From the NCBI RefSeq assembly GCF_013179735.1, contig NZ_JABMEG010000001.1, positions 1,364,001 through 1,428,000 on the forward strand: DNA of 64,000 bases. The letters are read 5' to 3'. How positions within the stretch are numbered: the stretch's first letter is position 1; every line of letters begins with the position of its first letter. Shown here one piece after another: positions 27,029 to 29,349 of the stretch. Source of the stretch: Permianibacter fluminis (GTDB lineage Bacteria; Pseudomonadota; Gammaproteobacteria; Enterobacterales; Permianibacteraceae). The notes beneath the pieces were generated by a model, which saw only the letters and a program-made list of their open reading frames with translations, did no database searches and had not been told where the DNA came from. The position numbers were made by a program, and so were the translations under genes.

Positions 27029-27058
27029 TTGACAGCGTATCCGGGCAGCCCCTAGTCT
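27029..27058 (+). promoter_or_regulatory. Sigma-70-type promoter of the pheA attenuator
   Basis: TTGACA at 27029-27034 and TAGTCT at 27053-27058 are separated by 18 bases. The expected start site is about 27065-27066, at the ATG of the leader peptide, so the leader transcript would have almost no 5' untranslated region. Confidence 0.55.
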
Positions 27059-27065
27059 CGACGCC

Positions 27066-27128
27066 ATGAACACACGACTTCAGTCCTACTTTTTTTACTT
27101 TACTCTCCAGCGAGCCGGGGAGGGCTGA
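27066..27128 (+). CDS. pheL: PheL-type leader peptide of a Phe/Tyr attenuator
   Basis: A 20-codon frame, MNTRLQSYFFYFTLQRAGEG, contains five aromatic codons in a row (Tyr-Phe-Phe-Tyr-Phe at 27087-27101). Its last codons contain AGCCGGGGAGG (27113-27123), an exact copy of the distal arm of the downstream terminator. This is the layout of transcription attenuation: a ribosome stalled at the aromatic codons leaves 27117-27123 free to pair with CCTCCCC at 27167-27173 and block the terminator. A ribosome that reaches the stop at 27126 covers it. The gene downstream makes phenylalanine precursors, which supports the call. The mix of Tyr and Phe codons suggests response to both. Confidence 0.85.
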   Translation: MNTRLQSYFFYFTLQRAGEG

Positions 27129-27166
27129 GTCGCGAGCGGGTAAAACGCCAAGCGCCAGCAAAAAAA

Positions 27167-27193
27167 CCTCCCCAGCCGGGGAGGTTTTTTTTT
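27167..27193 (+). terminator. Attenuator terminator before pheA
   Basis: Stem CCTCCCC/GGGGAGG with loop AGCC and nine T residues. It is preceded by an A-run, so it also works as a bidirectional hairpin. The alternative partner for its left arm lies inside the leader peptide at 27117-27123. Confidence 0.88.
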
Positions 27194-27238
27194 GCCCCGC
27201 AGGGATGCGGGGCATGCCGACAATTGCCGGGAGCAATT
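27194..27238 (+). other. Two further perfect hairpins between attenuator and pheA
   Basis: GCCCCGC-AGGGAT-GCGGGGC (27194-27213) and CAATTGC-CGGGA-GCAATTG (27220-27238) follow the terminator without T-tracts. They may stabilise the processed mRNA or take part in folding; no function can be assigned. Confidence 0.5.
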
Positions 27239-27297: not shown

Positions 27298-29349
27298 ATG
27301 AGTACTGACAACGCAGCGCAGCCGCTGCAGCAATTGCGCGAACAAATCAGCGCGCTCGACAGCAGCATGCTGGAGCTGTTGGCCCAGCGCCAGCAACTGG
27401 CGCGGGCGGTTGCTGCCAGCAAAATCGATTCGCAGTTACCGCTGCGCGACATCGCCCGGGAAGAAAAACTGCTGAGCCAGCACGTGCAGAAAGCCCAGCA
27501 GCTGGGCCTGCATCCGCGCTATGTCACCAAGATTTTTCACGCCGTGATCGAAGAGTCGCTGCGGGCGCAGCGGGCCACGCTGCACCCCTTGCCGAACACT
27601 GCTCGCGTTGCCGTGCTCGGCGGTCAAGGGTCTTACAGCGCGTTGGCGGCCGAAGCCTGGTTTGCCAATGTCGCCGAGCTGGAGCTGAAACCGGGCCGGC
27701 AATTTCGTGATGTGGTCCATTTGCTGCGCAGCGGTGACAGCGATTACGCCGTGCTGCCAATCGAAAACAGCATCACTGGTGCGATCAGCGCTGTCTACGA
27801 TTTGCTGCGCGATGGTGATCTGTATGTGGTCGGCGAGCATTACCTGCCGATAAAACATTCGCTGCTGGCCAAGCCCGGCGTTGGCATCAACCAGATTCAG
27901 AATGTGCTGGGCCATCCACAGGCGCTGGCGCAGTGTGATGATTTCCTGCAGCGCAACCGGCTGGCGCTCAGTTACTGCGACAGCACTGCCGCTGCGCTTA
28001 AGCAGGTCGCCAGTGCCGAGGCGCCGCTGGCGGTGATTGGTAGCGAAGCGGTCGCGGCGGAGTACGGTCTGGTGGTGCTGGCTGATGCCATTGCCAACAC
28101 CGCCGACAACGAAACGCGTTTCGTTGTGTTGTCACGCACGCTGCAATCGGTGCCGGCACCGGTGGCCAGCAAAACCTCGCTGATGTTCTGTACCTGGCAG
28201 CGGCCGGGCGCGTTGGCCGATGCCTTGTTGGTGTTCCGTGATCGTGCCATCAACCTGACTCGCATCGAATCGCGACCGATGCCGGGTGAACCATGGCAGG
28301 CGATGTTCTTCCTCGATTGCGAAGGCAATATCGAAAGCGAAACGCTGCAAGAAGCCGTGCAAGCGCTGAGCCGCTGCACGCGGGTATTGCGCGTGCTGGG
28401 TTGCTACCCCAGCGAGCGGCTGCCGCCGGCACAAGTGCCGGTTACGGTGTTGGCGCAAAGCGAAACGGAAAGCCGTACGGAAAACTCGTCGCCGGTGTCA
28501 GACCCCACGTCTTCGATTGGCCTAGCGGTCGCAGCGCCGGCAAAAAAACCGGCCAAGGCCGGCAAGGGCTGGAAGCTGGCCAGTCGCGAACACAAACCGG
28601 ATGACACCATTGTCGAAGTCGGCGGCGTTCGTATCGGTGACGATTTCATTGTCATGGCCGGACCGTGTTCGATTGAATCGGTCGAGCAAATCGAAAGCTG
28701 TGCCGCCTGGGCAGCGCAGCACGGTGCGCGGATTTTGCGTGGTGGCTGCTTCAAGCCGCGCACCTCGCCGTACGCGTTTCAGGGACTCGGCCTGCCGGGG
28801 CTCGACATGATGAAACAAGCCGGCGATCGGCACGGCCTGCCGATCATCACCGAAGTGATGAGCATCGAAGATATCGAGCCGGTGGCGCGGCAGTCCGACA
28901 TTCTGCAGATCGGTGCCCGCAACATGCAGAATTTCTCACTGCTGAAAGAGCTCGGCAAAACCCATCGGCCGGTGATGCTCAAACGCGGCCTGATGAATTC
29001 GATTGATGAATGGCTGCAAGCCGCCGAATACATTTTGGCTGGCGGCAACCAGCAAGTGATTCTGTGCGAACGCGGTATCCGCACGTTTGAAACGGCGACC
29101 CGCAGTACGCTCGACTTGAGCGCGGTGCCGGTGCTGCGCGAGCTGACCCATTTGCCGATCATCGTTGATCCCTCGCATGCGGCTGGCCGCCGTGATCTGG
29201 TGCCGGCGCTGGCACAGGCGGCCAAGGCGGTTGGTGCCCACGGCATCATTGTCGAGTTTCATCCGGAGCCGGAAAAGGCGCTGTCGGACGGCCCGCAAGC
29301 GCTCTACTTCGAGCAGTTCGCCGGCATGATGCAGCGGCTGTATCAGTAA
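27298..29349 (+). CDS. pheA: Fused chorismate mutase / prephenate dehydratase / ACT / DAHP synthase
   Basis: One uninterrupted 683-residue frame joins a complete P-protein and a complete class I-beta DAHP synthase. Domains: AroQ chorismate mutase (about 8-92), prephenate dehydratase (about 102-280; [23 protein letters not shown] and catalytic TRF in [10 protein letters not shown]), ACT domain (about 292-370; RPGALAD and ESRP, the Phe-binding motifs), a Lys/Ala-rich linker (about 385-430) and DAHP synthase (about 435-683; [42 protein letters not shown]). It would catalyse the first step of aromatic synthesis and the two Phe-specific steps, possibly with the ACT domain restraining all activities. 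The upstream attenuator fits this dual role. I do not recall a characterised example of this order. Confidence 0.92.

Follow-up and report, generated by a model that had tools for sequence, protein, structure and literature searches.

The region at positions 27029–27193 of the window (the whole 64,000-nucleotide stretch of Permianibacter fluminis DNA analyzed here; all features are on its forward strand) is very probably a pheL-type ribosome-mediated transcription attenuator, the leader peptide of which would be read from an RNA lacking a 5′ untranslated region. Sequence comparison indicates that this leaderless type of pheL, its 5′ end being placed by promoter geometry, is conserved and, of the four attenuators compared, is specific to pheL. 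The original prediction had proposed a promoter, a 20-codon peptide, a terminator and a repeated terminator arm, and every one of these elements was found in its expected place. The −35 box TTGACA (27029–27034) matches the consensus at 6/6 positions, and among the 70 leaders of the short-distance class described below, 96% have TTGAC. It is followed, after an 18-nt spacer, by the −10 box TAGTCT (27053–27058), with the ATG 7 nt further on, a layout which recurs in the sister species and five further families. The leader peptide pheL, MNTRLQSYFFYFTLQRAGEG, is encoded at 27066–27128 by 20 codons with a TGA stop at 27126–27128; it lacks a Shine-Dalgarno site, and the peptide is kept in relatives. 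As expected for the end-product-rich short ORF of an attenuator, it has five consecutive aromatic codons among the 20, also kept in the sister species: TAC TTT TTT TAC TTT (Tyr Phe Phe Tyr Phe, codons 8–12, 27087–27101).

Downstream of the control codons, region 1 (27104–27108) forms a protector hairpin with GGGGAG of region 2 in the full-length fold of 27066–27195, and its CTCTCC is kept in the sister species. Region 2, GGGGAGGGCTG (27117–27127), includes the last codons and the stop; in the predicted antiterminator, 27117–27123 pairs with region 3 (CCTCCCC, 27167–27173), with further pairing to CAGC at 27156–27159. Region 3 is common to the antiterminator and the terminator. Folding assigns region 4 (GGGGAGG, 27178–27184) as the distal arm of an intrinsic terminator with a U-tract (27160–27193), which has a 14-bp stem and a stability of −20.8 kcal/mol (27160–27195) and is seen in relatives too. 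The arm is part of an exact repeat, AGCCGGGGAGG, present at 27113–27123 and 27174–27184.

When the ATG lies 6–7 nt from the −10 box, the established geometry of sigma-70 promoters has transcription begin with the A of the ATG or with the preceding base, and the start is accordingly predicted at 27065–27066. From the window itself, the leaderless idea, advanced tentatively in the original prediction, looks weak: the −10 box matches the consensus at 3/6 positions and follows an 18-nt spacer, the promoter is absent from the consensus-scan list, and its score of 9.7 places it no higher than roughly the 95th percentile when upstream regions are shuffled. Comparison of sequences appears to rescue it, and the promoter stands above chance because it is conserved in the sister species and in relatives. 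The sample, drawn from genomes of a single order, comprised 209 regions upstream of pheA, of which 146 had a Phe/Tyr leader and a terminator (137 non-redundant). The spacing of −10 box and ATG, from which the promoter class was itself in part assigned, was bimodal among the 137 leaders, with 6–9 nt in 70 of them and 26–44 nt in most of the remaining 67. As a control, the short-distance definition was applied to 2,137 further ATGs from these regions, and only 1.8% fit it.

The short class made up 45/47 leaders of six families: 2/2 in that of the window (f1), 17/17 in f6, 12/14 in f7, 2/2 in f8, 10/10 in f10 and 2/2 in f20; the two leaders of f7 which do not fit are L016 and L058. Families f11, f15, f18, f21 and f25 do not belong to it. 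Alteromonas, Salinimonas, Bowmanella, Aliagarivorans, Rheinheimera and Alkalimonas are among the genera with the short distance, while Enterobacter, Kosakonia, Pectobacterium, Photobacterium and Grimontia have the long one. The short class is undercounted, since short-distance leaders are also present at loci scored as having none (L165, L083, L106, L029, L179 and L185), the detector missing leaders poor in aromatic codons. On a PheA tree with many open forks, the short and long forms need 4 changes.

The surroundings of the start codon are also those of a leaderless mRNA with an AUG start and no Shine-Dalgarno site. The median anti-Shine-Dalgarno pairing was −0.45 kcal/mol in the short class vs. 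−2.8 kcal/mol in the others, and in the window the duplex has +0.4 kcal/mol at the pheL ATG vs. −5.8 kcal/mol at pheA on the same transcript. A pyrimidine precedes the ATG at −1 in 89% of the short class, and the fourth base is A in 99% of it vs. 57% of the others. It is unlikely that pheL has instead an ordinary 5′ untranslated region, made from a real promoter further upstream, with TTGACA/TAGTCT near the ATG being incidental. Although the weak −10 box of the window and the longer 5′ leader of pheL in Enterobacteriaceae and Vibrionaceae would agree with this, the same −10/ATG spacing recurs in six families, and a search 13–60 nt upstream of short-class leaders revealed no second promoter better than random (best score 5.8 vs. 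5.5 shuffled). Moreover, a longer leader would supply no binding site for the ribosome, since a Shine-Dalgarno site is missing. The leaderless reading of pheL is therefore much better supported than when it was proposed: the promoter–ATG distance which points to the 5′ end is kept in six families and is lacking in other families and in other attenuators.

The short distance is not a general property of leaders in these genomes. Among leuA, trpE and hisG leaders of short-class genomes it was found in 1/36, vs. 45/47 pheL leaders (Fisher p ~1e-19, with rows that are not independent). The sole non-pheL leader with leaderless-like geometry is a His-rich one before hisG (L298, genome G053), the best promoter of which lies 6 nt from the ATG. 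The genome of the window has a leadered his leader peptide before hisG (L299), MLRNNRHHHHHHTELPWGPRR, with a terminator; its best promoter lies 55 nt upstream, and an SD-like AAGG precedes the ATG. Another feature was observed at the −35 box of Alteromonas and relatives (e.g., L067, L080 and L087), where TGTAAA-N6-TTGACA overlaps the box in 23/70 short-distance leaders vs. 3/67 others. The TyrR box is TGTAAA-N6-TTTACA, and the resemblance makes it possible that repression is added to attenuation in these bacteria. No TyrR-box-like sequence was seen upstream of pheL in the window.

According to the proposed mechanism, RNA polymerase would start at the ATG or at the base preceding it, and the ribosome would load directly onto the 5′-terminal AUG. 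When charged tRNA-Phe, perhaps together with tRNA-Tyr, is plentiful, the ribosome should reach the stop codon and mask region 2, whereby regions 3 and 4 would pair to form the terminator. A stall on the aromatic codons would leave region 2 free to form the antiterminator with region 3, and transcription would proceed into the aroQ-pheA-DAHP synthase gene. The element would thus respond to a shortage of Phe or Tyr.

Folding of the RNA, suggested as a check of the original prediction, gave alternative antiterminator and terminator pairings which depend on the ribosome position. The RNA 27066–27195 is more stable than its shuffles (z = −2.5; 5/200 shuffles were as good). The effect of stalling was scanned on RNA cut just after region 3, with the ribosome assumed to cover the RNA up to 12 nt beyond the first A-site base. 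Pairing of region 3 with region 2 upstream had a predicted probability of 1.00 with the A site at codons 1–13, hence also at the control codons, which fell to 0.18 at codon 15, 0.00 at codon 16 and 0.02 at the stop. The sister species behaved similarly, the probability staying at 0.96 or above through codon 14 and dropping to 0.20 at codon 15, and in a leader from another family (L005) the antiterminator was held to codon 15 and gone at codon 18. The model thus predicts that a ribosome at any of the five aromatic codons spares the antiterminator, and that one at codon 16 or beyond destroys it; the two structures are predicted to be mutually exclusive and switched by the ribosome position. The terminator is present in every full-length equilibrium fold, whatever the state of the ribosome, and antitermination therefore rests on the order in which the hairpins fold, a dependence general to such attenuators. 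The ribosome-free RNA ending after region 3 also prefers the antiterminator in the fold, so that termination by default without translation is not predicted.

The Rfam model RF01859 (Phe_leader) aligns over its positions 1–125 of 125 at 27065–27193, with 29.1 bits and an E-value of 0.0045. This score is below the gathering cut-off of 55, and at the gathering threshold Rfam has no matches anywhere in the window; the element seems to work like a Phe leader, yet it is not filed as a member by Rfam's own criterion. Its place before pheA, the Phe-rich peptide, the terminator and an antiterminator made of the peptide-end sequence and the left terminator arm are shared with the E. coli pheL attenuator. 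It differs from RF01859 in the Tyr of its peptide and in an ATG located 7 nt from the −10 box with no Shine-Dalgarno site, whereas enterobacterial pheL lies at least 26 nt from the −10 box.

The sister species (L004) retains TTGACA-18-TAGATT-7-ATGAAYACACG with the same spacer length and the same 7-nt gap, as well as the aromatic codons, CTCTCC, GGGGAGGG, both arms and the terminator. In comparison, the bases of the spacer and the N-terminal middle of the peptide have diverged. Relatives at ~41% PheA identity show an identical layout, and the N-terminal halves of the peptide vary freely from genus to genus. In one member of the window's own family (L191, genome G002), no recognizable leader peptide or attenuator was found before pheA within ~520 bases upstream, so the attenuator was apparently lost or gained within this family. 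Overall, the reading as classical attenuation, already made in the original prediction, is supported by the homology to Phe_leader, by conservation across many pheA genes and by the folding at different stall positions.

In the trpL attenuator of Sinorhizobium meliloti (rnTrpL), the RNA begins at its 5′ end directly with the leader-peptide ATG (PMC7298713). The element in the window shares this 5′ end as a prediction, but concerns another amino acid in another bacterial class, and no homology is claimed. The predicted leaderless RNA of ~128 nt resembles rnTrpL (PMC7298713), and the terminated leader might by this analogy act mainly as a small trans-acting RNA or a leaderless mini-mRNA, as with rnTrpL/peTrpL of Sinorhizobium, and not just as an attenuator in cis. 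We regard such a role as very unlikely, because the sequence gives no pointer to targets and the N-terminal halves of the peptide differ freely among genera. A chance assembly of a random short ORF with the terminator of the upstream DedA-like gene, to which the A- and T-runs on both sides of the hairpin would be suited, has almost no probability, since the sister species keeps the peptide, the repeated arm and the terminator, the elements are found again in front of pheA in families where another gene lies upstream, and the Phe_leader alignment is full-length.

The gene regulated by the putative attenuator (27298–29349) encodes a protein of 683 aa in which chorismate mutase, prephenate dehydratase, ACT and DAHP synthase type I beta domains follow each other (Pfam CM_2, PDT, ACT and DAHP_synth_1; TIGR01361). 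A fusion of aroQ-pheA to aroA-I-beta in Shewanella was called a bizarre “pseudogene” in 2005 (PMC1173090). The protein in the window has the same domain order, but the active-site motifs of its DAHP synthase domain (approximately codons 424–683) are intact, as they are in the sister species and in genome G293, and nearly so in G076, whereas the domain is degenerate in most relatives sharing the fusion. Loci L010, L018, L030, L054 and L057 were excluded from this comparison of motifs. It may thus be the intact form of the Shewanella-type “pseudogene” fusion, judging from these motifs. The genome of the window also encodes an aroFGH-type DAHP synthase. A second DAHP synthase of type I beta is located in the same genome directly beside trpE (G000:C1:3458247–3460657), and likewise in the sister genome; each of the two copies is thereby tied to one aromatic branch.

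The mixture of Tyr with Phe codons, which the original prediction had explained by the presence of DAHP synthase in the target, is real, but its link to that enzyme is at most possible. Tyr within the aromatic cluster occurs in 7/137 leaders, including those of the window, the sister species and two f8 genomes. Nearly all the sampled fusion genes with a degenerate DAHP synthase domain have Tyr-free leaders, and so does G076, one of the few with intact motifs. By sequence, Tyr appears to track the clade (the family of the window plus a part of f8) at least as well as it tracks DAHP synthase. Given the shared clade, the small sample and the pure-Phe leaders on fusions, the proposed reason is possible only. 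The only chorismate mutase besides the fusion in the genomes of the window and the sister species is a small, separate one; these two genomes yielded no aroQ-tyrA, nor did G293, G247, G053 and G009, and it is present in two other f8 genomes, G165 and G265. A joint Phe/Tyr signal would possibly be sensible where aroQ-tyrA is missing, since the chorismate mutase of the fusion may supply both branches.

In the usual textbook account of attenuation, the leader peptide has a Shine-Dalgarno site of its own. Leaderless mRNAs are common genome-wide in Actinobacteria. Leaderless leader peptides of attenuators have been described there for Corynebacterium glutamicum ilvB (PMC11857589) and for mycobacterial polycysteine short ORFs (Canestrari 2020, as cited in PMC13236596). 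In contrast to these actinobacterial examples, the predicted leaderlessness is here confined to pheL among the leaders tested. No report of a leaderless pheL or of a gammaproteobacterial leaderless leader peptide was found in the open-access literature, a scope which leaves outside the main 2004 comparative paper (Vitreschak) and the Shewanella start-site map. The attenuator itself is known; its conserved leaderless form is new as far as checked, and priority is not claimed.

A form predicted to have no 5′ leader, kept over deep divergence in one of four attenuators tested, raises the question of why direct 5′ loading suits pheL. A speculative answer, which we consider conceivable though rather improbable, is that pheL, alone among the amino-acid attenuators tested in several gammaproteobacterial families, senses both the charging of tRNA with Phe (locally Tyr) and a supply of 70S ribosomes or initiation factors favoring leaderless mRNAs. 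If true, aromatic synthesis would be tied to the state of translation via the 5′-terminal AUG of pheL. The leaderless and leadered pheL of related families form a natural pair for testing how the timing of ribosome loading affects the setting of an attenuator, and leaderless translation in gammaproteobacteria would have a natural substrate in the leaderless pheL.
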